From: Nitrososphaerota archaeon
GTDB taxonomy: Archaea > Thermoproteota > Nitrososphaeria > Nitrososphaerales > UBA57
Length of the DNA stretch: 64,000 nucleotides
Direction of reading: 5' to 3'
NCBI GenBank assembly: GCA_024860875.1
Contig: JACPSZ010000008.1
Coordinates: 148,106-212,105 of the forward strand
The position numbers and the translations under genes are program-made. The notes below the pieces were generated by a model. That model was not told the origin of the DNA, ran no database searches, and worked only from the letters and a program-made list of their open reading frames with translations. Position 1 is the first letter of the stretch. Every line of letters starts with the position of its first letter. Below are positions 31,752 through 48,541 of this stretch, piece after piece.

Positions 31752-31826
31752 TGGGCCAGGGCGGACTTGAACCACCGACCTTCGCTGTGTGAGAGCGACG
31801 TCCTAACCAAGCTAGACGACTGGCCC
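31752..31826 (-). tRNA. tRNA-Val(CAC)
   Basis: GGGCCAGTCGTCTAGCTTGGTTAGGACGTCGCTCTCACACAGCGAAGGTCGGTGGTTCAAGTCCGCCCTGGCCCA; stem TCGCT/AGCGA with CAC anticodon. Confidence 0.95.
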
Positions 31827-31865: not shown

Positions 31866-32513
31866 TTAGTCCTCTCTGCTCCAGCACTTCTGACTATATT
31901 TGCAATAAGAGCACTTCCAGACAAGGTTCAAATTCTTCTTCACATGCGGTGCAGCAAACGGATTTTTTGAGGATACGGCATCGTTGAACAGTTTTGCCCT
32001 GTTTTCGATCTCTTTCTTAACTTCTGCAAGCTCGCTATCATTGAGAGTGATAGTTCTGAACCTGAATGGTCTGCCCCTATTGTTGACCATAAGGTAGAGC
32101 AAAATCCCGACATTAGAGTTAGTCATCGCCATATAGTACTTTAGTTGGGTAACATGGAAAGGCCTTACGGAGTCATCGTCAGATCTTATGGTCTTAATTT
32201 CTATCGGAACTCCATCAAAAAGGTCAATTGTGCCTATAACTCCATCAACCGTTATCTCCCGCTCTGCAATTGCAGAGCCCTTCTCAGCAAGCCTTTGCAG
32301 AGCAACGTGCGCACCTTCGCCCAAAGCATACGAAACTAAATCCCTTTCATCAATAGCCCTGGGCTCGAGTTTCCTGAAGACCTGCTCTCTTATGCAGAGT
32401 ATCAAGTCTGAAACATGAGTACCCTCTCTTTCCTGCGCATACTCCTCCTCCAACAGTTTCAGCAGCTTTTCCCGATATGGGGAGCCTTCTTCGATGAGCA
32501 AGTCGCTATGCAA
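31866..32513 (-). CDS. Cas4/RecB-like PD-(D/E)XK nuclease, stand-alone
   Basis: HVSDLILCIREQVFRKLEP; GTIDLFDGVPIEIKTI; C-terminal WKCSYCKYSQKC (four-Cys arrangement of Cas4-like proteins). Confidence 0.78.
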   Translation of the reverse strand: MHSDLLIEEGSPYREKLLKLLEEEYAQEREGTHVSDLILCIREQVFRKLEPRAIDERDLVSYALGEGAHVALQRLAEKGSAIAEREITVDGVIGTIDLFDGVPIEIKTIRSDDDSVRPFHVTQLKYYMAMTNSNVGILLYLMVNNRGRPFRFRTITLNDSELAEVKKEIENRAKLFNDAVSSKNPFAAPHVKKNLNLVWKCSYCKYSQKCWSRED

Positions 32514-32598: not shown

Positions 32599-32826
32599 TT
32601 GGCAAAGGCCTTCGTCTTGATAAACGTCCAAACAGGCACTGAGGACAAGGTCATAAAGCAGCTAAAGACTGCAAAGAATGTTAGCGAAGCGTACTTTGTT
32701 TACGGAGTGTACGACTTTATCGTCACCGTAACAGCACCAACGACGGACGAACTCAAAGATAGTGTTCTAAGTCTCAGGAAGATTTCCGAGATTACTTCTA
32801 CACTAACAATGATGGTAATAGAGTAA
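32599..32826 (+). CDS. Lrp/AsnC ligand-binding (RAM) domain protein
   Basis: AKAFVLINVQTGTEDKVIKQLKTAKNVSEAYFVYGVYDFIVTVTA. Confidence 0.9.
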   Translation: MAKAFVLINVQTGTEDKVIKQLKTAKNVSEAYFVYGVYDFIVTVTAPTTDELKDSVLSLRKISEITSTLTMMVIE

Positions 32827-32832
32827 GGGCAT

Positions 32833-32880
32833 CCAAGAGTAAATTACTAGCATACTCTACTACTCTACTCCTCAGAACAA
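32833..32880 (+). repeat. Left copy of ~50-bp imperfect direct repeat bounding the surface-protein island
   Basis: CCAAGAGTAAATTACTAGCATACTCTACTACTCTACTCCTCAGAACAA resembles 47651-47704. Confidence 0.6.
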
Positions 32881-33090
32881 CACTCTAAATATGACATACC
32901 ATACGTCTTAGTACGAGAATACCCGAAAGATCAATAACGATCAACCATCAAACAAATACTTACTTTAGTTTTTGAGTATATATGAAGGGGGGCCTATCAT
33001 TTGCACACAGGAGTTTACACTAACATTCTATTCTTATTCGCTTTATATACCGGGGGGAGGGGGTACTTTTTGCAGTGGCACGTGTTCATC

Positions 33091-33567
33091 TTAATTCAGT
33101 AGTTCGAATATAGATATATTCATTGTCGTAGGTTCAGTAACTGCAGCCCTTCCCTTGCTCACAACCTCAGCATGGACATTCAGATCTCCTCCTTCCCTCG
33201 TCATCAGGTGTATCGTGTATGCATTTGTCTTAAGGTGAGGGACGTATACTAACATGCTGTTCTCGGCAACTGCCTCTCCCTTTGCATTCTCAAGCGTTAT
33301 TCTTAGCAGAACGTCTTTCTTTTCCTCCATCCCTGTATTTGTAACTAGAACCTTTACTGTAACTACTGCGCTTGGAGGGGGTGCGGACTTCTCTTGGTTC
33401 AGTTTAGCATTTTCTAAAGTTACTGTGAAAGTTTCAAGTATTGGCAGTGTAGGTCTTACAGTGACCGCCGTTGCCTGCGGATTGAACATTAGTGCAATAG
33501 GCATAAAAGCCAGTATGCCCATAGCCATTGCAATTCCAAACCGCTTTGTCCGCATCTGCATCACCAT
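33091..33567 (-). CDS. Secreted hypothetical protein
   Basis: N-terminal signal MRTKRFGIAMAMGILAFMPIALMFNPQATA; C-terminal beta-rich domain. Confidence 0.6.
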   Translation of the reverse strand: MVMQMRTKRFGIAMAMGILAFMPIALMFNPQATAVTVRPTLPILETFTVTLENAKLNQEKSAPPPSAVVTVKVLVTNTGMEEKKDVLLRITLENAKGEAVAENSMLVYVPHLKTNAYTIHLMTREGGDLNVHAEVVSKGRAAVTEPTTMNISIFELLN

Positions 33568-33680
33568 CCTATGTAGGATGGGTGGAGGATATCTGTTGCA
33601 GTCTGTAACAAATTAGTGAACAGTGAATTGTTCATTTTGAACGAACAGTTTTTAAATACCTTATGCTCGTACGGTGGCTA

Positions 33681-35351
33681 ATGGCGGAAGATGCTGTAGT
33701 CAGCCAGCTCACCGATTACGGCCTTGATAGCGAAGAAGCAAGAGCGTACATAGCCCTGAACAAGCTTGGTCCTAGTAAGGCAAGCACATTAGCATCGGTA
33801 TTGAAGTTTGATAGGGTCAAGACCTACAGGATCCTTGATAGCCTCAGAAGCGCGGGTGTAGTTGAATCCTCGCTCAGCAAGCCCATGAGATTTACTGCAG
33901 TGCCTCTGGAGAAGGCCTTAGATTCCCTAATCGTTGAATTCAGGGAAAAGGTCACGAAGATGGAAGCTAGCAAAGAAGAACTACTTCAAGCGTGGGCCAA
34001 ACTTCCATCTTTAGCAGAGCCACTCTCTGGTCCCAAGTTCAAGATACACCAAGGCAGGCTCAAGATACATTCAGAGCTTTCAAGGATGACAAAGCTTGCC
34101 AAGCAGGAGATTCTTCTGCTCACAACTCGGAATGATCTTAACAGGATGCTCTACTCTGGCGTCTATGACGCTCTTGCTGAAGCCAGCAGGGCAGGCAAGT
34201 CGATCAGGATACTTACGCAAATAGACAAGTCTGCCATAGAAATGACTAAGGAATACGAGGGGATTTCCAAGTTAAGGCACATGGACATGCCAGGGCTGGC
34301 CTCTTTCTACACTGTTGACAACAACGAAATTCTAATCTCGGTCACATCGGAGGATTCGATGAAACTCGATGATAGCAGAGACGTTGCATTATCGACCGAC
34401 GCGACCGAATTTGTGAGAGTTGTCAAAGTATTCTTTCAAACATCTTGGGAAGGCGCTCTTGACGCGCAGGCAAAAATTCAGTCTCTAGTTAGCGGTGTTC
34501 CGCTTGAGGAATTGAGGATAGTCCGCTCCGTAGAAGAATATGCGGAAATGTTCACAAGAATGCTCTCCTCTGCGAAAAACGATGTTACCTTCGTCGTGAA
34601 CCTACCAAATCCAAAACTCCTTCCTCAAAATTCGTGGGAGATTCTGCAAGGGTTATCTGCAAGAGCTGTAAAGGTCAGGCTCATAACGTCTATACTGCCA
34701 GAAAATCTTGAAACTGTTACAAGGTTGCAGTCTATTGCAGAGGTTAAGCATTCTAACAGGAGGCTTGCACTGCAGATGCTTATATCAGACAGAAAGGAGG
34801 TCTTGCTAGCTCCGTCAACCACTGAAGATACTTCGGCCGTGTTCATGTGGTCGAATATCAAAGCGTACGTCTACCTTATCCTGCAGCTTGCCGACGAATT
34901 GTGGGGCGAAGGAATAGATGCCCAACCATTGATGGAAACCCTGCGGATGTCTATTGAGATTAAAGAGTCTCTAACAAATCTACAGAAGGAGCTTAATGTG
35001 CATGGGCTTGAGCTTGAGAGCCCGGGCAGAGTTCAGGGTTTAAGTGGGGTATCGCACAAATTCGATGTCCTGATCAGGAATGCTAAGCAACCCAAACAGT
35101 TTTTCGTCGCTGACATAAGAGTCGGTCCAGAAGCCATAGAACCTCAATCGATGCTCTCAATCTACGCTAGAATGGTCGATATTAAGCCGACCAAAGCCTT
35201 CCTTCTTTCGATATCGCCCTCAGAAGTTGCTCGGAAGGGTGCAGACCTAGCTTCCATGTATGGAATCGACGTCATAGTAGGCAAAGACTCTAGGGATGTC
35301 TGTCTGAAGTTGCTAAAAACGATAGCACCTTTGATCAAGGCAAAGCCCTAG
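33681..35351 (+). CDS. TrmB-family transcriptional regulator (long form)
   Basis: LTDYGLDSEEARAYIALNKLGPSKASTLASVLKFDRVKTYRILDSLRSAGVV; start at 33681 fits a leaderless mRNA (TATA-like box 33650-33658). Confidence 0.85.
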   Translation: MAEDAVVSQLTDYGLDSEEARAYIALNKLGPSKASTLASVLKFDRVKTYRILDSLRSAGVVESSLSKPMRFTAVPLEKALDSLIVEFREKVTKMEASKEELLQAWAKLPSLAEPLSGPKFKIHQGRLKIHSELSRMTKLAKQEILLLTTRNDLNRMLYSGVYDALAEASRAGKSIRILTQIDKSAIEMTKEYEGISKLRHMDMPGLASFYTVDNNEILISVTSEDSMKLDDSRDVALSTDATEFVRVVKVFFQTSWEGALDAQAKIQSLVSGVPLEELRIVRSVEEYAEMFTRMLSSAKNDVTFVVNLPNPKLLPQNSWEILQGLSARAVKVRLITSILPENLETVTRLQSIAEVKHSNRRLALQMLISDRKEVLLAPSTTEDTSAVFMWSNIKAYVYLILQLADELWGEGIDAQPLMETLRMSIEIKESLTNLQKELNVHGLELESPGRVQGLSGVSHKFDVLIRNAKQPKQFFVADIRVGPEAIEPQSMLSIYARMVDIKPTKAFLLSISPSEVARKGADLASMYGIDVIVGKDSRDVCLKLLKTIAPLIKAKP

Positions 35352-35493
35352 AGCGGGTAGTCGAATCTCTGTCTTCTTCCTACTGGCTCATGCGGCCTGC
35401 GTTCTGTATAGGTCAAGCCCAGCATGATCATCGCTATGGCTGCTATAACCGCTGTGTGTACACCATAGATGTCTAGGAAGCCAACATTATGGG
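35350..35493 (-). pseudogene. Duplicated 3' end fragment of the giant repeat-protein gene
   Basis: tagagcgggtagtcgaatctctg...catagatgtctaggaagcc is ~90% identical by eye to 37096-37239. Confidence 0.85.
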
Positions 35494-35494
35494 C

Positions 35495-35507
35495 GCGATA
35501 CCCTGTT
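35495..35507 (+). repeat. 13-bp direct repeat GCGATACCCTGTT, left copy
   Basis: Exact match to 36298-36310, with weaker similarity beyond. Confidence 0.75.
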
Positions 35508-35605
35508 TCCCAAATACGACTGTTGCCCGCGCCGCATATGAACTAAAGAGTTAACAGAGCCCTTGGGAGCAAAAGATAATAGGTACTTTTGAACTAAAGT
35601 TCGCT

Positions 35606-35893
35606 GTGGGAAACATCAAAGTTACGGTCGATGATAAAGTCGAGGAGCGGTTCAGACGGGTGGCCATGAAGAAGTTTGGATATGGAAGAGGCGCCCTTAG
35701 CACAGCTGCTGAAGCAGCCCTTGCACAATGGTCCTCAAAAGAGGATATAGAGGAGGTAACTCTCGACGAACTAGATGATCCCGTAGCGGCCATAGAAGGG
35801 TTATTGAAGCATGCTACTGAGTCTTCAGTCGAGTTGCAATACAAAGCCAGCAGAATTAGAGTGAAGAAGACCCTTGGACATATCTCTCATTGA
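35606..35893 (+). CDS. VapB-like antitoxin
   Basis: Small DNA-binding-like protein overlapping a PIN-domain gene. Confidence 0.75.
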   Translation: MGNIKVTVDDKVEERFRRVAMKKFGYGRGALSTAAEAALAQWSSKEDIEEVTLDELDDPVAAIEGLLKHATESSVELQYKASRIRVKKTLGHISH

Positions 35894-36293
35894 CGCCAAT
35901 ATTTTTTTGGAACTTGAACTCGGACAATCAAGATCATCCGAATGCAAGGAATTCTTGTCCCAAGTTGCAAGAGGAAGAATCAAAGCAGTGACGACTGACT
36001 TTATCCTAGATAGCGTTGCGTTGGTTATGGAAGATAAGAGGAGTCCACCAAAAGACATCAGGAAATTCTTCGTGAGTCTCGCTCTTTACAACGGACTTTC
36101 TATTTACAGTCTTGATCTCAAAGATAGAATAGTAGCCGCCGAGGAAATGATCAGGGAACGCCTTGACTTTGACGACTCTACGTCTATTGCAGCCATGAAG
36201 CGATTGAAAATAAAAGACATAGTATCCTTCGACAAAGATTTTGATAAGGCCAAAGCGTTAACTCGAGTTGAGCCTAGGGACATTCTAAGATGA
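35874..36293 (+). CDS. VapC-like PIN-domain toxin
   Basis: MDISLIDANIFLELELGQSRSSECKEFL...DDSTSIAAMKRLKIKDIVSFDKDFDKA. Confidence 0.9.
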   Translation: MDISLIDANIFLELELGQSRSSECKEFLSQVARGRIKAVTTDFILDSVALVMEDKRSPPKDIRKFFVSLALYNGLSIYSLDLKDRIVAAEEMIRERLDFDDSTSIAAMKRLKIKDIVSFDKDFDKAKALTRVEPRDILR

Positions 36294-36297
36294 GCGT

Positions 36298-36310
36298 GCG
36301 ATACCCTGTT
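36298..36310 (+). repeat. 13-bp direct repeat GCGATACCCTGTT, right copy
   Basis: Exact match to 35495-35507. Confidence 0.75.
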
Positions 36311-36438
36311 CTCTAAACGCGATCGTTACGTGCCACCGATTTCTGCCGATTCTAATCGCCTCCAAAAAGGGCAAAAAAAGTCTATTGGAGGGCAGAGTCA
36401 CAGGGCTTGTTTCTGCAGGTCTTTAGCAAGCTTTATAC

Positions 36439-36831
36439 GTGTATATGCGGTATACGTACTCGATGGTGAGAACTGTCACACTAAAAATCAAAGATAGGAT
36501 GTCCTTGGTGTTACCGACAAGGTATTCAAAGAGGGAGGTGGAGGAAATAGAAAGAGCTCGCAGAGTCCTCGGGCTCTCCTCGCGAAGCGCTTTCATAAGA
36601 GAGGCTGTCCTAAGCAAACTGGAGGAAATAAAGCAGGTGCGAGTGGTAGAAATGCAAGATGTCTCTGTAGACCAAGCCTCGGAGATGATTGACAGGTATC
36701 TGATGAATAAGCCGGGCGTCCACTACGTAAGCGAACTGATTGAGGAGCTTGGGCTCGAGCCAAGAATAGCCTTTGAGGCTGTAGAGAAGCTAGTCCAAGG
36801 TGGTAGCGTAAGAGTAAGGAATAAAGTATGA
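36439..36831 (+). CDS. Ribbon-helix-helix DNA-binding protein
   Basis: LPTRYSKREVEEIERARRVLGLSSRSAFIREAVLSKLEEI plus C-terminal helical domain. Confidence 0.75.
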   Translation: MYMRYTYSMVRTVTLKIKDRMSLVLPTRYSKREVEEIERARRVLGLSSRSAFIREAVLSKLEEIKQVRVVEMQDVSVDQASEMIDRYLMNKPGVHYVSELIEELGLEPRIAFEAVEKLVQGGSVRVRNKV

Positions 36832-37001
36832 CAATCCTTACAGCAGAAGGCGATGGGATAATAGGCAAACGGATAATCTACGTAGCCCGTAAAGTGGATG
36901 GGCCCCACCTTGTGCGAAAAAGTGGAAGCCACAGAGGTCTCTTGGGCAAGCTTTACGATGCTGAGGCCTATGTCGATCTGCCCATTGAAAAGGCAAACTA
37001 G
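36828..37001 (+). CDS. 57-aa protein translationally coupled to the RHH gene
   Basis: ATGA overlap; MTILTAEGDGIIGKRIIYVARKVDGPHLVRKSGSHRGLLGKLYDAEAYVDLPIEKAN; not in supplied ORF list. Confidence 0.55.
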   Translation: MTILTAEGDGIIGKRIIYVARKVDGPHLVRKSGSHRGLLGKLYDAEAYVDLPIEKAN

Positions 37002-37096
37002 ATAGGCCTAAGCAGTTTCGCAATACGACAACTAACCAAAGCTAAAAGTACTCAGATAGGAATATGACACATATGCCCAGTTCAGTTATTCAAACG

Positions 37097-40000
37097 CTAG
37101 AGCGGGTAGTCGAATCTCTGCCTTCGTCCTACTGGCTCATGGGGCCTGCGTTCCGTATAGGTCAAGCCCAGCATGACCATCGCCATAGCTGCTGCAACTG
37201 CTGCGTGCACACCATAGATGTCTAGGAAGCCGACATCGTAAATTCGTGTGACTGCCTCAGATTCTATTCCATCTGCAATTATCTGCGATGCGACTCTATA
37301 TTTTCCAGAAGTTGCAATCGGGAATCCTAGCGGAATTTCTTGCATGTTTGCAACATCTACTGAGAGCGACTTTATGCCAGAGGTTATCGTGTTGCCCTCC
37401 GGGTCCATTAACCAGTACTTGAAGACGACATTGCTCGATCTGTCGCCCATATTTATCAAACTTGCCGCAGTGAGTATCTGTGCCTGTGGGACTATCTCTA
37501 ACCTGCTCCAACTTGGCAGAACCTTTCCCATACCTATCACTACGTCAAATAATCCTATTGTAACGGGCTTGTTCATTATGGCCCACTTGCTAAAGTGAGT
37601 AATATCCTCGCTCGTTTCTAAATAGTGCTCAACCTCGTTTACTACACTTGCAACAGGCCTCCACTGTTGCAGTGACTCAGAGAAGGTGTATAGCCAGAGG
37701 TCCGATGGTTGTAGACCAAGAGTTCGCATTTGTTCTGAGCTATAATAGAGCCTTACTTTTGCGTTGAAATTCGTCTGTATGCTCATAGTGATTTCTACAG
37801 GCGTACCTACGATTGTGTGGCTCGAAGGCGGAGCTATACTCTGAACGTCTGCTAAGGGTTGGACGATTACGTTTGCGGCGTTGTCAATCTTTGTTATCAT
37901 AACTGCTGCGTTTGAAGTCGACCTTGCGTTGACCATTAATGGTTCGTTCGGACTGACGAGCTGTGGGGCAGCTATAGCAACTAGTGTCTGCTTTACTGGA
38001 CCAATAATGTGAGCTTCAAGCGTCTTTACAATGACGCTCATGGTGTCGGTAATCGTTCTGTATATGTTAGAGGTAGCCTGTGAAGCAATGCTCATAGCTA
38101 TATTGTCACCTATTGGCGCTGTCAGTTTTGCAAGACGGCCTATGGTGTCAGATAGGTTCAGTGTTTCAGCAAGCTCGACAAAGTTAGGTATGCTTTTTGT
38201 AAGGCTATCGACAACCCTAACGATATCTTGTAGTTGTAAGTTTATTGTGATAGTTCGTGCCAACTGCTCGGCAATCTGGATCGTCTCGGTCAGGAGCACT
38301 TGTTGAATGTATGTGCTTGTCAGGGTATCTATGTTTTCTATTTGATCAGCTAGCCCTCTTAGAAGATTTGTATTAGATGATGCTTCTCCAGCGACTCCGA
38401 GGACATCCTCAATTGCGACCAAGAAGGAGAATGGAGGCTTTATGATTGGTTGGGTAGGCTGTTGCTGCCCCTGTCCTGTTGAAGATACATCTACGAATAG
38501 CAAAGATTGGATTATGCTTCTGAGAGAGATCAAACCTCTATTTACATTTTCCGTAATGGCTATGGTTTCAGCCAGTTGAGGCCATAAGCTCTTGTTAATT
38601 ACATCGCTGAAACTTAGTCCATCGCTTATTATTATTGGAGAGAACGATTGAAATCTGCTTGCTACATCGCTTAGCGTGAGAGATTCTGTTATGGAAAGTG
38701 ACGCTACATACATTCTGCTTATGGATTCGCTTATGGAAAGTGCTTGCGAGATTACCCTGTCTAATGCAATAGCTCGCTCTACGGTATCTGCAAAAGAGCT
38801 CGTGTCGCTGATGCCCCTTGCAAAGTTCGCGAAAATATCAGCCATATCTGCAAGCGTTGCAGTTTCTGTCAGCCCTCTTACCAACTCTACAGACCTTTCT
38901 ACTGTCTCCGAGACTGCCATGGTTTGGTCAATGCTTCTGCTAAATTCTACAACCCTGTTTAGAGCATCGGAAATTACAGGAACTTCAGCGACTGTTCTTG
39001 TTGAAACTAGAGCCCTGTCAAGAGAATCAGACATGGACGTGCTCTCGTCTGCAGTTCTGGATAACCCGAGCATTCTTGCAATCGAATCGGAAACAGTTAA
39101 CGCTTGATCAATGCTTCTGGTCATGGCTGCTAGCCTATCTATTGCATCACTGATAGATACTGAATCTGCGACTTCTCTTACAAAGTTGTTTAGGGAGGCT
39201 ACTGCATCGGTTATTACAGTTGTGTCAGTGATTCCTCTTGTCAGATCAATTGCCCTCTCAAGAGAGTCGGATATGGAGAACGATTGAGCTACATCCCTTG
39301 TCAGTGCGATGGCTCTATCGACTGTATCGCTTATTGTAGTCGGATCTGCCATTGATCTGATGAATCCGCCTAATCCAGCAGTTGTGTCTGCAAGAATTGC
39401 TGTGTCTGTTGCAGTTCTAAAAAGTACTGTGATTCTGCCCGCGGTATCACTAAAGATAGTTGTATCAGTAACAGTTCTGAATAATTCCAGCGTCGAGGCG
39501 AGAGTGTCAGATATTGTACTAGAATCTGCAATTTCTCTTGAAAAGTTAGTTAAGGAAGATACTGTATCCGACACTGTCAATGCTTGGTCAATGCTTCTTG
39601 CCATTACTACTAACCTGTCCGCAACATCAGTGATCGTTGCTGTGTCTGCGATCGTCCTTGCAAAATTGCTCAGAGATGATGCTACGTCAGCTAATGTAGA
39701 TGAGTCTGCAATTGATCTTGATAGAGCTATTGCTCTATCTAATGTTTCAGATATGGAAATTGATTGAGTCATATCTCTACTGAGCACAAGAACTCTGTCA
39801 ACTGTATCGCTGATTGTAGATGTGTCTGTTATCAGTCTAATGAAGCCCCTTACTCCATCCGTAGCATCCGTGAATGTGGAAATGTCTGTAATTTCCCTCG
39901 TTAATGCTACTGTTCTGTCCAAAGTTTCGGATATGGAGAGCATCTGAACCACGTCTCTGCTTAGTGTAAGTGCTCTCTCGATTGTGTCAGTAATTGTAGC

Positions 40001-42139
40001 AGAATCTGTCATTGATCTGATGAATCCTCTTAATCCTTCTGCAGTCTCCGTGAACACTGCAGTTTCTGTTGCATCTCTAAAGAGTACCGTGATTCTGTCT
40101 GCTGTGTCGCTGAAAGTTGCTGCTTCCGAAACAACCCTGAATAAGTTGAGCATTGAAGTCACAGTGTCAGATACAGTGCTGGAGTCTGTAACTGTTCGTG
40201 CAAAGTTGCTAAGCGAGGTTGCTACGTCAGAAACTATCAGTGATTGGCTTATGTTTCTGGTAAGAACTGCAGCTCTGTCTACAGTATCGCTAAAGGTGCT
40301 GGATTCTGCTACTGTCCTGAACAAGTTAAGTGTCGAAATTACCGTGTCAGATATTGTACTAGAGTCAGTCATTGCCCTAGCAAAGTTGCTCAGATATGAT
40401 GCTATATCAGTAATTGTAGTTGTGTCAGTAATTCCTCTTGTCAGATCAATTGCCCTTTCTAAAGTTTCAGACATGGATATCGCTTGAGATATGTCCCTGC
40501 TCAATGCAATTAATCGGCTTGCAGCATCAGTGAATATCGTTGGATCAGTTATGGTTCTAATAAAGTTAGGCATGCTAGTTATTGCATCTGCAATTGTTGG
40601 ATTCTCTGTTAGAGACCTTGTTAATTGCGTGAACCTCTCTACTGTGTCGCTTATCGTACTTGAATCAGTAATCGCCCTAACAAAGTTAGGCAAGCTTTCC
40701 AGAGTGTCAACCACGCTTGCAGCGTCTGCCATGCTTCTGGAGAGCAATATTGCTCTCTCTACCGAATCGGAGAAGACCGGAGTTTCGTCCGCCGTTCTGT
40801 AAAGCAGGACTGTTCGTTCTATAGAATCTGCTAGCGATACTGTTTCTGTTGCGCTCCTTGCAAGTGCTACCACTCTTGCGATTGAATCTATGAATGCAGG
40901 ATTGTCTGTAACTTCCCTTGCCATTGTTACAAGTCTTGTGATATCGTCAGATACGCCCAGAAATTCTGCTAGAGCTCTTGTAAGTTCCACTACCCTTGTA
41001 GCTTCGTCTGAGAACGATGCGATGTCTGCCAGGCTCCTTGTCCCTGTGAACTGCCTGTTGATCTCGTCTGTGTATGTAGAAAGCTCTCCAACCGATCTAA
41101 AGAGAGAGGCCATTCTTGCTATAGAGTCGCTCATTGTTGGATTTTCTTCCAAAAGGCGTGCCAAATTGAGCATCCTGTCTACGCTGTCAACGAATGTTGC
41201 AGTTTCGGCCATTGCCCTTGTGCCTACGAAGAGTCTTGCCAGGTCGTCGCTTACCGTCAGCGATTCTGATCCCGTTCTTGGGAAGTGGACCATTCTATCA
41301 ATTGCGTCAGATATTGTTGGGGTTTCTGTCATGCTTCTTGCTACAATGATGGCCCTCTGTAATGAGTCTGTAATCGATGGCGTTTCTGTAACCTGCCTTA
41401 CTAGCGTGGTCGCTCTGGCTATGTCATCTGACAAGGTGATGGTATCGTTAATTCTTTTGAGAACACCGAAGACTTTATCCACAATTTCAGACCATGTCAT
41501 GCTGTCGCTTATGCCTCTAACTCCTGCCATTCCTCTGCTTGAAGAGTCCGATGTAGTTACCGTCTCGCTCATGCTTTTTGAAAAAGCCTGCGTATAGTAG
41601 ACCGTAACTCTTATCCAATTTACCCTTCTGGCCCTCGTATCGTCTGTTCCCAACTTGACGGTGAATGAAGCAGAGTTTATGTCAGAAGCTACCCATGACA
41701 GGCCCCACAAGGCTGAAGAACTGCCATAGGTATTGATATTCTGTCCAGAATCACAAGATTGATTTGCTAGATTATCTTCTGTAGTCTCAGTTCCAAGAGT
41801 GCTTTCATCTTTGCCAACATTTACGAGCAGGCCAGCAGCTGGATTAACCCCTTTGCTCGCCTTGACCTCAACGGTTATGCCCGTAATTGTAGCGTTAGAG
41901 GGAATATTAAAGCTGAAGCTCTTCCAAAAACCTGATATGGCTGACGCTGATGTTGCACATGCAGTTTCATCGCTACCGTTAGCATCATTTGGATTTGTCC
42001 AAGAATTTGTGCCTGCAGCTCCAGCATAGAGAGGTCCACTTGAGTTATCAGCAAAAGCTGGCTGAATTGGAGGATCGAAATGAGAAATAAGAGTGGTGAG
42101 GCTAAGCAGGATTATAAAAAAACCCGCGCTTGTGCGCAT
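37097..42139 (-). CDS. Giant 20-aa-repeat surface protein, signal peptide and C-terminal TM anchor
   Basis: 1680 aa: signal, beta-sandwich-like N-domain, ~50 tandem units of form R-x-[LIV]-x-[DE]-x4-S-[DE]-x-[LIV]-x-R-x4-x, C-terminal VHAAVAAAMAMVMLGLTYTERR. Confidence 0.9.
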   Translation of the reverse strand: MRTSAGFFIILLSLTTLISHFDPPIQPAFADNSSGPLYAGAAGTNSWTNPNDANGSDETACATSASAISGFWKSFSFNIPSNATITGITVEVKASKGVNPAAGLLVNVGKDESTLGTETTEDNLANQSCDSGQNINTYGSSSALWGLSWVASDINSASFTVKLGTDDTRARRVNWIRVTVYYTQAFSKSMSETVTTSDSSSRGMAGVRGISDSMTWSEIVDKVFGVLKRINDTITLSDDIARATTLVRQVTETPSITDSLQRAIIVARSMTETPTISDAIDRMVHFPRTGSESLTVSDDLARLFVGTRAMAETATFVDSVDRMLNLARLLEENPTMSDSIARMASLFRSVGELSTYTDEINRQFTGTRSLADIASFSDEATRVVELTRALAEFLGVSDDITRLVTMAREVTDNPAFIDSIARVVALARSATETVSLADSIERTVLLYRTADETPVFSDSVERAILLSRSMADAASVVDTLESLPNFVRAITDSSTISDTVERFTQLTRSLTENPTIADAITSMPNFIRTITDPTIFTDAASRLIALSRDISQAISMSETLERAIDLTRGITDTTTITDIASYLSNFARAMTDSSTISDTVISTLNLFRTVAESSTFSDTVDRAAVLTRNISQSLIVSDVATSLSNFARTVTDSSTVSDTVTSMLNLFRVVSEAATFSDTADRITVLFRDATETAVFTETAEGLRGFIRSMTDSATITDTIERALTLSRDVVQMLSISETLDRTVALTREITDISTFTDATDGVRGFIRLITDTSTISDTVDRVLVLSRDMTQSISISETLDRAIALSRSIADSSTLADVASSLSNFARTIADTATITDVADRLVVMARSIDQALTVSDTVSSLTNFSREIADSSTISDTLASTLELFRTVTDTTIFSDTAGRITVLFRTATDTAILADTTAGLGGFIRSMADPTTISDTVDRAIALTRDVAQSFSISDSLERAIDLTRGITDTTVITDAVASLNNFVREVADSVSISDAIDRLAAMTRSIDQALTVSDSIARMLGLSRTADESTSMSDSLDRALVSTRTVAEVPVISDALNRVVEFSRSIDQTMAVSETVERSVELVRGLTETATLADMADIFANFARGISDTSSFADTVERAIALDRVISQALSISESISRMYVASLSITESLTLSDVASRFQSFSPIIISDGLSFSDVINKSLWPQLAETIAITENVNRGLISLRSIIQSLLFVDVSSTGQGQQQPTQPIIKPPFSFLVAIEDVLGVAGEASSNTNLLRGLADQIENIDTLTSTYIQQVLLTETIQIAEQLARTITINLQLQDIVRVVDSLTKSIPNFVELAETLNLSDTIGRLAKLTAPIGDNIAMSIASQATSNIYRTITDTMSVIVKTLEAHIIGPVKQTLVAIAAPQLVSPNEPLMVNARSTSNAAVMITKIDNAANVIVQPLADVQSIAPPSSHTIVGTPVEITMSIQTNFNAKVRLYYSSEQMRTLGLQPSDLWLYTFSESLQQWRPVASVVNEVEHYLETSEDITHFSKWAIMNKPVTIGLFDVVIGMGKVLPSWSRLEIVPQAQILTAASLINMGDRSSNVVFKYWLMDPEGNTITSGIKSLSVDVANMQEIPLGFPIATSGKYRVASQIIADGIESEAVTRIYDVGFLDIYGVHAAVAAAMAMVMLGLTYTERRPHEPVGRRQRFDYPL
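38600..41560 (-). repeat. 60-bp-period coding tandem repeat array
   Basis: Units line up every 20 aa, e.g. RTVAEVPVISDALNRVVEFS / RSIDQTMAVSETVERSVELV / RGLTETATLADMADIFANFA. Confidence 0.85.
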
Positions 42140-42180
42140 CGGGTATCCCCTTTAGCCTCTTTTTTCCTATTGCGGACTAT

Positions 42181-42747
42181 TTACGAGATCGTTATAGTCC
42201 AGGTTATGGTTATTTGGTCTCCGCTGATCAGGTTTACCGAGCTGAAAGTGTTCTCAGCCAGCATACCTGCAGATGATGCTGTGTTCGAATTGAATAGCCC
42301 TGCTGCTTGAACTGCCGTGAACGAGCCTGATGCAGTGAACGTCTTCTTTACGATGATTGTGCTAGTGCTGTTCGCATGGTTATAGACTCCTTCTGCTCTC
42401 TGAAGTCCATTCGTGGTGATCTCTCCGCTCAGCGTAGTGTCACCAGCTGCTGGTGTTATTGCTGTAGTAGTCAATGCGATGTAGGTTGTACCTAGAGGAT
42501 TAGCCTTCACGCTCGCATTAGTGCCAGCAATTAGTTGCTTTGCGATTATGTCTATTCCTTGGTTTGTGATCAGGTTGTGGCCTTCTTGGAAGTAGATGAC
42601 TTTGCCTTCTCTGACTACTTGCACCTTGACCCATCCTGAGACCTTCACGCCTTCGTACACTTGTGTTCCGCTAGAGTAGCCGTAGCCGAATGACGCAATT
42701 GCGACCACTAGGCCGACCATCACAGCGATTGGGACCGTCTTATTCAT
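42181..42747 (-). CDS. Membrane-anchored protein resembling phage tail/structural proteins
   Basis: N-terminal TM MNKTVPIAVMVGLVVAIASFGYGYSSG, then NLITNQGIDIIAKQLIAG...TTYIALTTTAITPAAGDTTLSGEI...VQAAGLFNSNTASSAGMLAENTFSSVNLISGDQITITWTITI. Confidence 0.7.
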   Translation of the reverse strand: MNKTVPIAVMVGLVVAIASFGYGYSSGTQVYEGVKVSGWVKVQVVREGKVIYFQEGHNLITNQGIDIIAKQLIAGTNASVKANPLGTTYIALTTTAITPAAGDTTLSGEITTNGLQRAEGVYNHANSTSTIIVKKTFTASGSFTAVQAAGLFNSNTASSAGMLAENTFSSVNLISGDQITITWTITIS

Positions 42748-42795
42748 ACCTATTTTTCCTCCTACCCCATATAGGTATGGTGGGGGAATTGTCCT

Positions 42796-42817
42796 TTTTT
42801 ACGGAAAACCGTAAAAA
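42796..42817. promoter_or_regulatory. Perfect 9-bp inverted repeat TTTTTACGG-AAAA-CCGTAAAAA
   Basis: Lies between the regulator gene and the start of the surface-protein operon. Confidence 0.55.
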
Positions 42818-42871
42818 TTTGACCGCCCTTTTCAAAAAGAAATACAGTACAGATTACTAATTCGGCAAACT

Positions 42872-43975
42872 TTACTTGAAGTAGCCCTGAAAGTCCTTTA
42901 TCATGCGAGCTTTGTTGAGCTGCCATCCCTTCTTCTCGTCAAACATTCCTGTAGGCAGAGGGAAGCCTGCAGAGTCGTAAGAGTCGCATATCCTGATATC
43001 CAATTTGCCGAGGCCCGAAGAATTCTGGTCAATAAAGTGCATTGCAGCGTTAAGCTGTGTCGCTGGTATATTCGCAAACACATAGTAGTTGGAGTTCGTA
43101 GTGTAAAGTTCCATCCACGAAAACGGGAACCTGTAGAACATTTCCCTGACTTTGTTCAGCCCATCTTGCTTAACATTCTCAAATGAGAATATGACTTTGG
43201 AGACGCTGTTTTTATCATATGGTCCTCCTGTCCCTACCCAGCCTACTATGTGCTGTCCTATCATGTTCCGCTTCTTCACGTGCTCTGTAAAGTGATAATA
43301 CGCAATATCCTCGCTTACCTTGAGGCTCTCAGCCATCTTCGATACCGAAATGTTCGCATTGGACTGCAATTCAGCAAGAATCTGAAGATCTATATTGTCA
43401 GGCTCCTCTAAAGTGATGGCAACGTTTGCAGCAGGAATCTCTACAGGTGAAATCTTGAGCTTCTCCAGGTCCTCCCACTTAAAGTTCCATTCGCCCTTCT
43501 GGAAGTCGTAAAGATCGGTCATAAGCGGAAAGTGCTTGTACCATACTGTATCTTCGGCTTGGTAAGACTCCAGAATGCCATTCTCCTTCAGATAAGAAAG
43601 GAAGTCCTTGTACTCTGTCCAGCCGTTATTCGGTACGACAAGCATCATAGTCGTGACTTTGCTGCCTATTGTCTTGGCATAGTATGTAACATAGAGCTGC
43701 TCTGAAACTTCTTCGAGCGCCCTAGCAGCCTTTGCTATGTACTGGCTCGGGAAGGTTACCGAAATTATCTTTCTTGAGAGTGAAATTTTATCGTAATTGA
43801 TACCAAGATGGATTGCTATTCTCTGCTTTGGGAATTGGCGGTTGACCTTATATCGAACCGTTTCTTCTGGCATTCCAACCATTTTTGCCAGTTTTGAATA
43901 GTTCTCTCCGCCGACCTGGCCTATAGCGTCTACTAGCCTTGCAATCCCATTATTGGACTTTTCACTGCCAGACAT
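42872..43975 (-). CDS. Winged-helix (Lrp/AsnC-like) regulator
   Basis: IDLQILAELQSNANISVSKMAESLKVSEDIAYYHFTEHVKKRNMI; N-terminal HTH NYSKLAKMVGMPEETVRYKVNRQ. Confidence 0.75.
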   Translation of the reverse strand: MSGSEKSNNGIARLVDAIGQVGGENYSKLAKMVGMPEETVRYKVNRQFPKQRIAIHLGINYDKISLSRKIISVTFPSQYIAKAARALEEVSEQLYVTYYAKTIGSKVTTMMLVVPNNGWTEYKDFLSYLKENGILESYQAEDTVWYKHFPLMTDLYDFQKGEWNFKWEDLEKLKISPVEIPAANVAITLEEPDNIDLQILAELQSNANISVSKMAESLKVSEDIAYYHFTEHVKKRNMIGQHIVGWVGTGGPYDKNSVSKVIFSFENVKQDGLNKVREMFYRFPFSWMELYTTNSNYYVFANIPATQLNAAMHFIDQNSSGLGKLDIRICDSYDSAGFPLPTGMFDEKKGWQLNKARMIKDFQGYFK

Positions 43976-44158
43976 TATCTACACTCTATAGTTTCGGTAT
44001 TTCATGTGCAAAGTTAACAGAATAAAGGCATTATGACCGAATAATCAGTACTCCAAGTCAATATTATTGATTCTGGCAACTCTGCAAGAGGTTTCTTTAT
44101 ACGGCCTGTTCAGACAGTTTCTACCAACAAATACTCTGAACATAGTCAATCCCGTCAC

Positions 44159-44647
44159 TTAGCAACTGATGCTGCTTGATTTGTTCACAATGATGTAAGG
44201 CTCTTGACCGTCGACGAAGAGTATCCCTGAGAAAGTAAATCCTGGGCTTGGCAGGTCTAGGATAGAGATATCGACCCTGTATGTATCGCCAGATATTGCA
44301 ATCAAAAGATTTCCAGTTCCTTGGTTGTAGCTCCATCTTCCAGTAACTGGGCTACTAATTCCTAAATCGGTCGCTGAGAAAGTGCCTTCTAACGTTCCCA
44401 GCAAGATGCCGTCCGTGCCTTGAACAGTTTGGCTATTGCTTATGCTGAACTCCCATCCGCTTAGTGAAGTCGTTATTGCAGGCTGACGAACCACTACGCC
44501 ACTTAACGAGCCAGACAGACTACAGGGATTGGCTCCAGTGCTTTGGAAGGTGTGAAACAGCAATGCTGCAAGCGAGATAGCAGTAATGATACCAATAGTC
44601 TTCATGCTCAATGCCATAGATAGTCTCCACGAACCTCTAACCTGCAT
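44159..44647 (-). CDS. Secreted hypothetical protein
   Basis: Signal-like N-terminus MALSMKTIGIITAISLAALLF; beta-rich remainder. Confidence 0.5.
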   Translation of the reverse strand: MQVRGSWRLSMALSMKTIGIITAISLAALLFHTFQSTGANPCSLSGSLSGVVVRQPAITTSLSGWEFSISNSQTVQGTDGILLGTLEGTFSATDLGISSPVTGRWSYNQGTGNLLIAISGDTYRVDISILDLPSPGFTFSGILFVDGQEPYIIVNKSSSISC

Positions 44648-44776
44648 TTAGTCTCTACGGATTTGAGCTCCGAAAATGATGACCGGAGCAGAAATTCTAG
44701 TGGCCTCTGAGGAGTTTGTACAAGAAATCGGGTGGTGCATAAGGGTTTTATTGGGCATAATTGGATTTCCTTACTA

Positions 44777-44983
44777 ATGTCTAAAGCTCTCCTTACGAAA
44801 CGTGATAGAAAGTTGCTTACTGAAACCAAGAAGATCATGGAAGAGATATTGGAGACTCAGGAAGTCCTAGCCGACCGACGACTGGTCGATTCGATCAAAC
44901 GTTCAAAGCGTGACCTCAAATCTGGAAGAGTCCTCGAGTGGGAGCAATTGAAACGTGAGCTCAAGTCAAAAGGCAAACTATAG
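44777..44983 (+). CDS. RelB-like antitoxin
   Basis: Small helical protein overlapping a RelE toxin gene. Confidence 0.75.
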   Translation: MSKALLTKRDRKLLTETKKIMEEILETQEVLADRRLVDSIKRSKRDLKSGRVLEWEQLKRELKSKGKL

Positions 44984-45230
44984 CCTTGTCCCCACCAAAG
45001 AGTTCCTTAAGAGTCTTGAGAAACTGGACAGGCAGACAAACCAAAGAATCATCAGATCAATCGAGGACATAGCTCTGAAGCCGTTCCTTGGTAAGCCCCT
45101 CAGGGGAGAATTGCAGGGAATATATTCACTGAGGGTCGGTGAATATCGGGTACTCTACTCCATCAATACCCGAAAGCGCGAGCTCATCGTACACGTTGCC
45201 AAGCACAGGAGTAAGGTCTACGAAAAATAG
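44955..45230 (+). CDS. RelE-family toxin
   Basis: YSLVPTKEFLKSLEKLDRQTNQRIIRSIEDIALKPFLGKPLRGELQGIYSLRVGEYRVLYSI. Confidence 0.92.
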   Translation: MSSSQKANYSLVPTKEFLKSLEKLDRQTNQRIIRSIEDIALKPFLGKPLRGELQGIYSLRVGEYRVLYSINTRKRELIVHVAKHRSKVYEK

Positions 45231-45369
45231 AAGGTCTCATGGCGTAGTCAGACGTGAATGAGCGAAGATTACCTAAAGCATCTGTAAAAGCGTCAATGGC
45301 ATCATCGGCTGCCCTTCGGGATGAAGATAACGCCTATACCTCAAATTGGAAGCTGCTGGACATCGAGAG

Positions 45370-45639
45370 TTACAATCCTCGGCTATATGCCTGTTTGTGT
45401 GTACCGCATGAGAGGAGGATGAGCCTGTCTTTGTATATCCTGTATACTATTCGAAGTGTCAAAGTTGCCCGACAGCTCCATGAGCATTTATACGGTTCTC
45501 TCTGAAGATGATGAGAACCTTTCGGTTGGTCTGCCGAGGTAGCCAGCTCATCGATTGCATTATCAAGGGCTTGTTGCTGAGTGCTGGATAGTTCTTTATA
45601 CCTAGCTATGAATTCTGGCCGTACTTCGGTATATCTCAT
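45370..45639 (-). CDS. RelE/ParE-like toxin
   Basis: MRYTEVRPEFIARYKELSSTQQQALDNAIDELA...CSWSCRATLTLRIVYRIYKDRLILLSCGTHKQAY. Confidence 0.8.
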   Translation of the reverse strand: MRYTEVRPEFIARYKELSSTQQQALDNAIDELATSADQPKGSHHLQREPYKCSWSCRATLTLRIVYRIYKDRLILLSCGTHKQAYSRGL

Positions 45640-45995
45640 TCCTTCCGCTTAAGCATCTTGTGAAGGAATTGTGATGGCTTGGTCGTTGGAGGCACAACGA
45701 TTCCCTTTTCTCGGATCCCTCTAATAATACTAGCCTCGAATTCAGGATCGAATAGTATCTCCAGGTTGGCGAGGATGTCTGCCTTGGATTTCCCCTGCGA
45801 GATCATATCGGCTATAAGATCCATAGCTTCGATAAGGGTAGCGTTAGCGATCTCTGATCTTGGATGAATATAATCCCTTATTGCTTGTTCAACGAACTGG
45901 CTCAGCGAGCCTTTTCGGCTGCCAATACGTCTCCTGATAGCCTCCCGTAATTCCTTGTCAAGGTCATCATCAATGCGAATCAGTAACTGCTTCAT
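45636..45995 (-). CDS. Ribbon-helix-helix antitoxin
   Basis: MKQLLIRIDDDLDKELREAIRRRIGSRKGSLSQFVEQAIRDYI; ATGA overlap with toxin. Confidence 0.82.
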   Translation of the reverse strand: MKQLLIRIDDDLDKELREAIRRRIGSRKGSLSQFVEQAIRDYIHPRSEIANATLIEAMDLIADMISQGKSKADILANLEILFDPEFEASIIRGIREKGIVVPPTTKPSQFLHKMLKRKE

Positions 45996-46394
45996 GTTGA
46001 TATTAGATGATATTGAGTGATATATATCCTCTTCTTGAATAGTAAGAGCATCTGCTATGCTACACACAAAGATGTGCGCATAGAATACCCTTAAGAGAAT
46101 CTAACTATGCTAGGAAGCCAATGCAGGGTACTTTGCTGGGAAAGCCTGTCTAACGGCATCCGAGAGGTACTCGACCGTAATCAACTCCTTGCCCTGAATA
46201 ACTCGTCGGGAGATCTTTAGTTAACTTCTGATAAACCTAAGGCTTACCAGGCATCAAGCATGTCCTGGGGGCCCCTATCGTTTTGTAGGGCCTAGAGGGG
46301 GTATAAAAAGTGGACAAACGGATTTCTCGAAGAGTTACCAGAGCCACTCCTAGCTTAAAATAAATATGGGGGAGTTAATTCACAATGTAAGTGA

Positions 46395-47648
46395 ATGCCT
46401 CTGGAGAGCCAAACTGAAGAAAATTACGAGCAGTTGGCTGAAGAGCTCTGCCAGTACGGTCTTACACGTAATCAATCTGAGACTTACATATCTCTCACGC
46501 GCAGTTCTTGGTCATCCGCGTTAGAAGTTGCAAAGTTGACTGGAAAGCACCATGAGGAGGTATATCGATCAATCGATAAATTAAGAGAATTAGGATTAAT
46601 TTCAGTAATGCCTGGAAGGCCGACAAGATACTTGGCGCTCCCTCCCGATCAGGGCCTTTCATTATTGATAGAATTAGAAACGCAGAAAGTGAAGGCCCTA
46701 AAGAAAAAGCAGAGTGATCTTGCAAAGAAACTTGAATCGATAAGGATTGAGCACAAAGGCGTGCCCGAGCAAAAAGGCTTCAGGTGGATAGCAGATAATG
46801 CTCTTTCAGTAAGCATGTTTATGTCTGCAATAAACGAAGCACATTTCAAGATTGCGACGACATTAACTACCAGAGAACTTGAGATGGTTTCATCTGGCAA
46901 TATATTCAGAACTTTGCTCGAGGCACAAAAGCGCAACGTGGAGGTTGAGATTCTTACAAGAGTAACCACAAGTAATGCAGAATTGGTTCAGAACCTAGCC
47001 AAGCAATTTACAATAAGGCACAGGGGGATGATACCCGCAGGTTTAGCGGTATTCGACCAAAACAACGCAAGGCTGGTCTTTCAATCGGGAGAGCATGATG
47101 ATCAGGGGCCTAACATGATAGAGATATGGTCGAGTAACAAGCGCTTCGTGGATTGCATAATCTCCCTGAATTCGGAGCTCTGGGAGAGCGCGATGGACAT
47201 TTCAATAATTCTTGAGCTGATAAAGGCAGGCAGCAATGTTCCTCACATCGAACTATTCAAAGACAGGCACTCTGTCATGGACGTTATTGCAAAGATAGCC
47301 CTAGAAGCAAACAAGGACGTCTACGTAGTATCGGATTCCAAGCATTTGAACGAAATTCTTCGGATACTAAACTCGGGAAGCGTATCCAACAAAAAATTGA
47401 AGGTGCATGTACTGACACAAGCAGACGGAGACTCGGCCACATTAGTCAGCAAATACGCGTCTAACAGCAGTTTTGGCTTTAGGTACAGCGAAAATGCAAA
47501 GATGGTAGCGGTATCTTCAGGATCCAGGTGCATGATATTGCCAGAGCCCAGCCTCCTTAACGAAGGAATCTACGTTGCCACCGGAGCCCGTGCATCGATT
47601 CTCGGCATTCTCCTGAAAGACCTCTATAACACCGCCGTTGAAGGTTGA
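46395..47648 (+). CDS. TrmB-family transcriptional regulator
   Basis: LCQYGLTRNQSETYISLTRSSWSSALEVAKLTGKHHEEVYRSIDKLRELGLISVMPGRPTRYLALPPDQGL. Confidence 0.85.
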   Translation: MPLESQTEENYEQLAEELCQYGLTRNQSETYISLTRSSWSSALEVAKLTGKHHEEVYRSIDKLRELGLISVMPGRPTRYLALPPDQGLSLLIELETQKVKALKKKQSDLAKKLESIRIEHKGVPEQKGFRWIADNALSVSMFMSAINEAHFKIATTLTTRELEMVSSGNIFRTLLEAQKRNVEVEILTRVTTSNAELVQNLAKQFTIRHRGMIPAGLAVFDQNNARLVFQSGEHDDQGPNMIEIWSSNKRFVDCIISLNSELWESAMDISIILELIKAGSNVPHIELFKDRHSVMDVIAKIALEANKDVYVVSDSKHLNEILRILNSGSVSNKKLKVHVLTQADGDSATLVSKYASNSSFGFRYSENAKMVAVSSGSRCMILPEPSLLNEGIYVATGARASILGILLKDLYNTAVEG

Positions 47649-47650
47649 AA

Positions 47651-47704
47651 CCAAGAGCTAATTCCCGTGCATATACTCTACTATTCTAGTACTCATCAGA
47701 ACAA
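47651..47704 (+). repeat. Right copy of ~50-bp imperfect direct repeat
   Basis: CCAAGAGCTAATTCCCGTGCATATACTCTACTATTCTAGTACTCATCAGAACAA resembles 32833-32880. Confidence 0.6.
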
Positions 47705-47908
47705 TTTTTCTTGCAACGGAATGAAAGCAATTTACTGCAAAAATTAACACCACTTCAATTGCAGTTTCTATCTTTCACTTCATCTATACTCCCCCATAGT
47801 CTAACATGGGGCCCATTTTGTAACTCTATTCTGCTTTATATTGTAGCCCTCTCCTAATAGCCATACCTGAGTACCCGTCTTTTGCGCAGGGGCGTGTTTT
47901 GTTACTTT

Positions 47909-48541
47909 TTACCTTGACGCCATAGCCACGCGTTCTTGCTCATTCTTCTTCTTTATCGAATAACTGTTAGTATCATTACGAACAGCGGCCATAATTTCGT
48001 CAGCAAGAATCTCTTCAACGCTTCTCCTAGAAGCAAAGCTAGCATCTCTAACACCCTCAGAGATGAACCTTAATGCAAGATCAAGTCTCCTTTGAGGAGA
48101 AATATCAACAGAAACATGATAGACAACTCCTCCGTAAGCAATCCTAGTAGTGTCTTCATTTGGAGATGCGTTCTCCACGGCCCTGACAAGAACCTCTATG
48201 GGATTCTTCCCAGTTTCAAGCGCTATGATGTCAAATGCTGACTTTACAATGTTCATGGCTCTCTGCTTCTTCCCTCCCATCCTTCCCGTGTTCTTAGCAT
48301 GCTTCTTCCCAAAGTGCATTATTGAATTAACTAATCTTTCTACAATGTTGACATGGGATTTTCCAAATTTTTTGTGCTCGTGCCTTCCCATCGATGTAGG
48401 AATAATAACAGGGTTCAGAGAAATTACCCTCTTAAGTCCTGGATCCTTAACTTCCACTTGGCTATAATCCCACTTTCTAAACAACATCAAGTTAGGTGCA
48501 TTTGTCATCTTCTTACCTTCTGGGCTTCTCCTTTCTCCCAT
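47909..48541 (-). CDS. rps7: 30S ribosomal protein S7 (uS7)
   Basis: [49 protein letters not shown]. Confidence 0.96.

Follow-up and report, generated by a model that had tools for sequence, protein, structure and literature searches.

The window analysed here is a stretch of 64,000 nucleotides from a Nitrososphaerota archaeon, and the locus of interest within it consists of two open reading frames (ORFs) on the minus strand, one encoding a protein of 188 aa (42181-42747) and the other a protein of 1680 aa (37097-42139). The two co-oriented ORFs are separated by a 41-bp gap, with the small one upstream of the large one, just as given in the preliminary description. The features of the locus, in which the small protein is referred to as the adaptor and the large one as the rod, are as follows.

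42181-42747, minus strand: 188-aa protein with a predicted membrane anchor and a viral tail domain (adaptor), from the ORF and a match to phrog_5417 (E 4.2e-14); single copy in the window genome
42676-42747, minus strand: predicted N-terminal membrane helix of the adaptor, residues 1-24, from hydropathy; a low-confidence, disordered N-terminus in the AlphaFold model
42184-42645, minus strand: predicted viral tail domain of the adaptor, residues 35-188, from AlphaFold and Foldseek
37097-42139, minus strand: 1680-aa repeat protein (rod), predicted to be secreted and C-terminally anchored, from the ORF
42050-42139, minus strand: signal-peptide-like segment of the rod, residues 1-30, ending at AFA/D, from sequence and hydropathy
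41588-42028, minus strand: beta-domain at the N-terminus of the rod, residues 38-184; 78 relatives of it occur in viral contigs
38570-41509, minus strand: array of 49 tandem 20-aa units of the rod, residues 211-1190, from self-match periodicity and a unit profile; it has viral counterparts
37985-38569, minus strand: degenerate repeat and linker region of the rod, residues 1191-1385, from sequence comparison
37220-37978, minus strand: juxtamembrane domain of the rod, residues 1388-1640, kept in genomes G203 and G209 (phmmer E about 1e-59)
37160-37219, minus strand: predicted C-terminal membrane anchor of the rod, from hydropathy; an Arg-rich tail comes after it
42872-43975, minus strand: AsnC-type regulator gene directly upstream of the pair, from Pfam; it has the same place in G209
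32823-47909, no strand: 15-kb stretch bearing the pair, missing in the sister species G009, from blastn of L338

Long antisense ORFs within the rod gene mirror the repeat and were not counted as genes. A 162-aa secreted protein (44159-44647) was weighed as a possible third member of the system but discarded, as no homologue of it was found among the fetched loci. A 145-bp direct repeat with 90% identity (35343-35487 versus 37092-37236) was also observed; it covers the final ~50 codons of the rod gene, the membrane anchor among them, and recurs just behind a TrmB gene (33663-35351), with PIN-toxin and RHH genes lying between the two copies. This repeat is possibly a remnant of a further rod gene, or a trace left by recombination.

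The adaptor has a single hydrophobic segment by hydropathy, and this lies at the N-terminus, in agreement with the anchor described earlier. Single-protein searches of Pfam, NCBIfam and the PDB gave no usable family for either the adaptor or the rod. In the PHROG collection, however, residues 43-187 of the adaptor match phrog_5417 over profile positions 18-156 of 156, a phage family labelled as having an unknown function. A strong member of this family (E 5.5e-42) is gp18 of phage BcepGomr, whose gene is located between the tape-measure gene and tail fibre J, and five conserved residues (N58, G64, D177, T180 and W183) are common to the adaptor and the viral rows. Soluble relatives of the adaptor in archaeal genomes belong to tail modules of a provirus-like kind, where they usually follow the tape measure and a gene of about 480-590 aa. 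In G003, which belongs to the window genome's family, the phrog_5417 member shows a sub-threshold match (E 1.6e-4) to Pfam Gp80, a podophage fibre protein. IMG/VR yielded 117 relatives with identity of up to 52%, and when PDB sequences were searched with a profile of 15 close relatives, the baseplate hub of the tailed archaeal virus HFTV1 was detected (E 0.0067).

Structure prediction pointed in the same direction. The AlphaFold model of the adaptor, based on a 63-row alignment, contains a confident beta domain plus one helix (mean pLDDT 86.8), with block means above 90 over residues 31-188, except for residues 71-90. Its sole PDB fold match at E<=0.001 was again HFTV1 (9h4p_BD, Foldseek E 3.5e-6), while 49 viral models in BFVD matched at the same threshold (best E 2e-11), including those of haloviruses and of proteins named tail fibre or tail collar. 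The phage-tail-like domain that had been read from the letters of the small protein is thus borne out by both profile and fold. The BFVD models B2CRN3, Q914H2 and A7WKQ9 place the same fold in filamentous archaeal viruses (lipothrixviruses and SIFV) as well, and the domain is therefore not confined to tailed viruses. The adaptor departs from the virion proteins of phrog_5417 in its N-terminal membrane helix and in having no virion genes nearby, and for these reasons it is regarded as a relative of these proteins rather than as a virion protein itself. Overall, the profile matches and the model indicate that the small protein is a viral tail domain carried on a predicted membrane helix and predicted to face outward.

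The rod starts with a signal-peptide-like N-terminus and shows a hydrophobic segment at about residue 1641, followed by an Arg-rich tail; its secretion and C-terminal anchoring, which the preliminary description had proposed, are thus upheld as predictions from the sequence. Between these ends, residues 211-1190 form 49 gap-free units of exactly 20 residues by the unit profile count, close to the figure of about 50 given before, with a consensus of about T-[DE]-[TS]-x-T-[IFV]-S-D-T-[VIAL]-[DE]-R-x-x-x-[LF]-x-R-[ST]-[IV]. Over residues 191-1230, the mean BLOSUM62 self-match was 1.2-1.6 at lags of 20, 40, 60, 80, 100 and 120, whereas the best lag of any of 50 shuffles reached at most -0.31. On top of the 20-residue period lies a weaker superperiod of 60 residues. 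Beyond the regular array, degenerate units continue to about residue 1385. Between them and the anchor lies a further domain of ~250 aa (1388-1640).

At the DNA level, the array was undetected by Tandem Repeats Finder because its copies have diverged. Identical residues at lag 20 have identical codons at a frequency of 0.39, compared with 0.38 expected from codon usage, suggesting that the array is old and has been kept at the protein level; the mild excess at lag 60 (0.46) suggests some later growth in three-unit blocks. The fold of the rod was modelled from a repeat-only alignment (A5), as a mixed alignment of N-domain and repeats (A4) aligned viral N-domains onto the repeats. For 12 units, the best of five AlphaFold models reached a pLDDT of 81.6, while the other four stayed at 29-41. 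The best model is all-beta, with one 20-aa unit per coil, and its PDB matches, although weak, were mostly beta-solenoids. Matches of the rod to designed helical repeats in the PDB were rejected as composition artefacts, because the confident repeat model is all-beta. With one all-beta model of period 20 among five, a beta-solenoid fold is weakly suggested, and the earlier expectation of a rod of repeats is borne out in part.

The repeat of the rod has viral counterparts as well. An HMM of three units, built from the window rod and its relative in G203 (Nitrososphaeria archaeon DRTY6_bin.124), was run on the ORFs of viral contigs and detected proteins with the same 20-aa unit in the same register (E down to 3e-94), while zero matches were obtained on shuffled sequences. 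At E<1e-5, the unit was found in 20 of the 80 viral contigs that had been fetched with the adaptor (some of them near-duplicates), but in none of 78 viral contigs fetched with the rod N-terminal domain and none of 20 random archaeal stretches. One viral contig (L214) shows the gene order of minor tail proteins, central tail fibre J (E 4.5e-45), adaptor and, 6 bp later, the repeat protein; in another (L149), the repeat protein lies 75 bp downstream of the adaptor homologue. Hallmark genes on further contigs of this kind include a terminase in L157 and weak portal matches in L169 and L162. Several viral repeat proteins match phrog_12240 (for example, L169 with E 9e-39), a family whose profile recovers giant proteins from 36 of the 125 good genomes of the class. 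In the window genome, phrog_12240 gave no match at E<=0.001, and the best PHROG match of the rod had an E of 0.54, so the window rod is linked to this family via the repeat HMM built here. A tblastn search of repeat segments against the phages collection gave no matches, a result of little weight for which low-complexity filtering may account.

The N-terminal domain of the rod has its 78 viral relatives in proteins of varied size, and this domain is absent from the rods of G203 and G209. For a unit as short as 20 aa, the likeness to the viral one could be partly convergent. The shared unit and register argue that the rod is a fibre of the viral 20-aa-repeat type, and the viral kinship covers both proteins, adaptor and rod. 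Among the viral contigs, L145-L150, L152 and L153 carry genes for tail-domain proteins that begin with a membrane or signal segment; downstream of these lie genes for secreted proteins, among them the one on L149 that bears the 20-aa repeats. Such anchored genes on viral contigs are possibly phage-encoded surface conversion genes.

The co-occurrence of the two genes was then compared across cellular genomes, in which phrog_5417 is present in 94 of 400 genomes of the class. From the names of matching loci, the genome groups f2, f3 and f4 are Nitrosopumilaceae, Nitrosocaldus and Nitrososphaeraceae, respectively. A giant gene was counted as adjacent when it encoded 800 aa or more and lay on the strand of the anchored tail-domain copy, no farther than 300 bp downstream of it. 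Outside Nitrosopumilaceae, 17 anchored copies have readable loci, and a giant gene lies directly downstream of 11 of them. When comparable ORFs were drawn from random stretches of these genomes, 1 of 220 had such a neighbour (Fisher 5.5e-14). Of the remaining six anchored copies, one is at a contig end and one has a giant gene upstream. Soluble tail-domain copies were followed by a giant gene in none of nine cases, and in Nitrosopumilaceae such a gene comes next in only 3 of 35 anchored copies. In all 15 single-contig genomes of the order that contain both, however, the anchored gene has a giant repeat gene no more than 22.5 kb away, against ~3% by chance. As the genomes in all these counts are related, the counts are not independent. 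Close relatives of both genes are present in G203 and G209, in which the juxtamembrane domain is retained (E about 1e-59); their rods contain 120 and 32 units, respectively, compared with 49 in the window, and the AsnC-type regulator upstream of the pair has a homologue in G209 (E 5.7e-114). The pair, which had been expected to co-occur in relatives, is thus syntenic in several families, and the cellular pairing is conserved within the order.

Two other arrangements of anchored tail-domain genes were seen. In Nitrosopumilaceae (L100, L104, L107, L113, L116, L123 and others), the gene is divergent to that of a conserved protein of ~250-270 aa, which is secreted and C-terminally anchored, contains FDGKW...EWK...DDYCF and resembles by eye a CBM9/DOMON-type binding domain, with no Pfam match. 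In Nitrososphaeraceae (L065, L067, L070 and L072), two anchored tail-domain genes from different tree branches stand head to head, in most cases with a ~150-aa secreted protein between them.

Within the window's own genus, the pair is accessory. By blastn, only 173 bp separate window positions 32822 and 47910 in the sister species G009, and the 15 kb missing there lie between a Cas4-like gene and the rps7/RNA polymerase operon. Besides the pair, this stretch carries two TrmB-type regulators, a PIN-domain toxin, ParE-like toxins and RHH regulators, and in the window's family an anchored copy is found in the window genome only. Its ends show neither flanking repeats nor a base-composition step; it is therefore not called an integrated element, and both a gain in one lineage and a loss in the other would fit. 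G009 has a different insert of ~2 kb near the left end of the site, which may be a hotspot. The PD-(D/E)XK nuclease with Cas4 similarity (31866-32513) adjoins a tRNA-Val (31752-31826) and is kept in G009.

Since tail modules of viruses encode relatives of both proteins, the pair could be what is left of a tailed provirus, namely two tail-module genes without a cellular role. We consider this highly improbable: no terminase, portal, capsid or tail-tube gene was found among the Pfam-scanned ORFs of the stretch, nor any viral gene besides the pair, both reading frames are intact, the repeat has been maintained at the protein level, and the anchored pair is kept in several families. In addition, both proteins carry membrane or secretion signals, which virion tail proteins of the same order lack. 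The same scans revealed no sheath, tube or baseplate genes of a contractile injection system or tailocin.

A tree of 70 domains (unrooted) was used to examine the history of the adaptor. The window copy groups with those of G203 and G209 (SH-aLRT 95), and this group is nested in a well-supported one (99) that mixes cellular and viral rows. A single clade of all cellular anchored copies was rejected by the AU test (p 0.02; 0.003 without Nitrosopumilaceae), suggesting that the domain was probably exchanged between viruses and cells more than once. The interleaving of cellular and viral rows, together with the wide occurrence of anchored copies in the order, would also fit the opposite course, in which viruses made their fibres from captured parts of an old cellular surface, namely the anchored proteins and the repeat. 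This direction seems rather unlikely to us, as the tail domain is widespread in bacterial phages and in archaeal viruses of other groups, far beyond these archaea; this wide occurrence favours a viral origin, although, with the tree being unrooted, it does not decide the matter. We infer a transfer from virus to cell, a direction that is partly supported.

Such repeated exchange, as well as the relationship of both parts to tail proteins of tailed viruses, some of them in the host order, raises the question of whether the displayed virus-like parts occupy or mask the receptors of related tailed viruses and thereby block adsorption. The position of the window copy among toxin-antitoxin genes on an accessory stretch would suit this superinfection exclusion. 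However, masking requires neither the giant size nor the variable length of the rod, anchored copies occur in many species and often near giant genes, and no known defence gene appeared in the Pfam scans, which makes this role quite improbable.

The explanation that we put first, although tentatively and with somewhat more doubt than trust, is that the locus is a cell-surface version of the tail-fibre module of tailed viruses, in which an anchored tail adaptor and an anchored fibre are used for adhesion. In this proposal, the N-terminal helix would hold the viral tail domain of the adaptor outside the membrane, and the rod, a viral-repeat fibre with a signal peptide, would carry its viral-type beta-domain at the far end and be fixed by its C-terminal membrane anchor, so that both proteins most likely sit on the outer face of the same membrane. 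By analogy with viral tail adaptors, which seat fibres, the adaptor domain would seat the base of the rod, and we infer contact between the two proteins on this ground. The repeats may form a stiff rod with about 0.5 nm per unit, given that beta-solenoids rise by ~0.48 nm per coil. Its length is accordingly estimated at about 24 nm for 49 units and at 15 to 58 nm for 32 to 120 units. The gap between the membrane and the S-layer in Haloferax is about 20 nm (PMC12494034). The rod would thus hold its N-terminal domain at or beyond the S-layer, where the exposed tip could bind surfaces or neighbouring cells.

The closeness of the ~24-nm estimate to this ~20-nm gap could also be read as the mark of an envelope scaffold, with the pair serving as a spacer or strut between membrane and S-layer, the rod setting the distance and the adaptor anchoring it laterally. 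The membrane anchors on both proteins and the presence of a giant gene near the anchored gene in many species agree with such a role. However, we judge it unlikely, as the patchy occurrence within the window's family and genus ill suits an essential strut, the unit number spans 32 to 120, and the N-terminal domain of the rod differs among orthologues, which suits a tip that serves for binding. The most likely use appears to be adhesion to cells or surfaces, ahead of both the scaffold and superinfection exclusion.

Each part of the locus resembles a known system and differs from it in other respects. The adaptor is like PHROG family 5417 (Burkholderia phage BcepGomr gp18) in sequence profile and conserved residues, but differs in its membrane helix, its place outside a tail module and the anchored rod encoded downstream. 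By profile and fold, it also resembles one domain of the HFTV1 baseplate hub (PDB 9h4p chain BD), which anchors three trimeric tail fibres (PMC12494034); the hub, however, is a virion protein of 954 residues, of which only this one domain matches (TM-score 0.48 by query length). PHROG family 12240, comprising phage repeat proteins of unknown function, is matched by viral proteins with the window's 20-aa unit, whereas it remains below threshold in the window genome and is reached via the repeat HMM. The thaumarchaeal proviruses Nvie-Pro1, NCAV2-Pro1 and CalSub-Pro show that genomes of this lineage take up tailed viruses, tail genes included, as proviruses (PMC6563490), from which the window differs as a two-gene surface locus with anchors and no virion genes. 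Giant surface adhesins, such as MpAFP (PMC4083281) and the methanogen adhesin-like proteins (PMC11532034), are very long, secreted and variable in repeat number, like the rod; the rod differs in its viral-type 20-aa unit, its pairing with an anchored viral tail domain and the lack of a match to any Pfam adhesin family. In the open-access text of the literature, thaumarchaeal proviruses and giant adhesins are described, while no account of this adaptor-rod pair was found.

Taken across the order, it is possible, though still open to considerable doubt, that these archaea repeatedly adopted the attachment device of tailed viruses, anchored both of its parts and turned it into a static surface rod of adjustable length. 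If true, these domesticated virus tail parts would form a class of their own, separate from tailocins and contractile injection systems. Cells are best known for using virus tails as injection machines, while here they would use an attachment fibre instead, in an order that includes the ammonia oxidisers, about whose contacts with other cells and with surfaces little is understood. The finding would also give a context to two phage families labelled as unknown, phrog_5417 and phrog_12240, and it predicts that giant archaeal surface proteins and viral fibres have parts in common.
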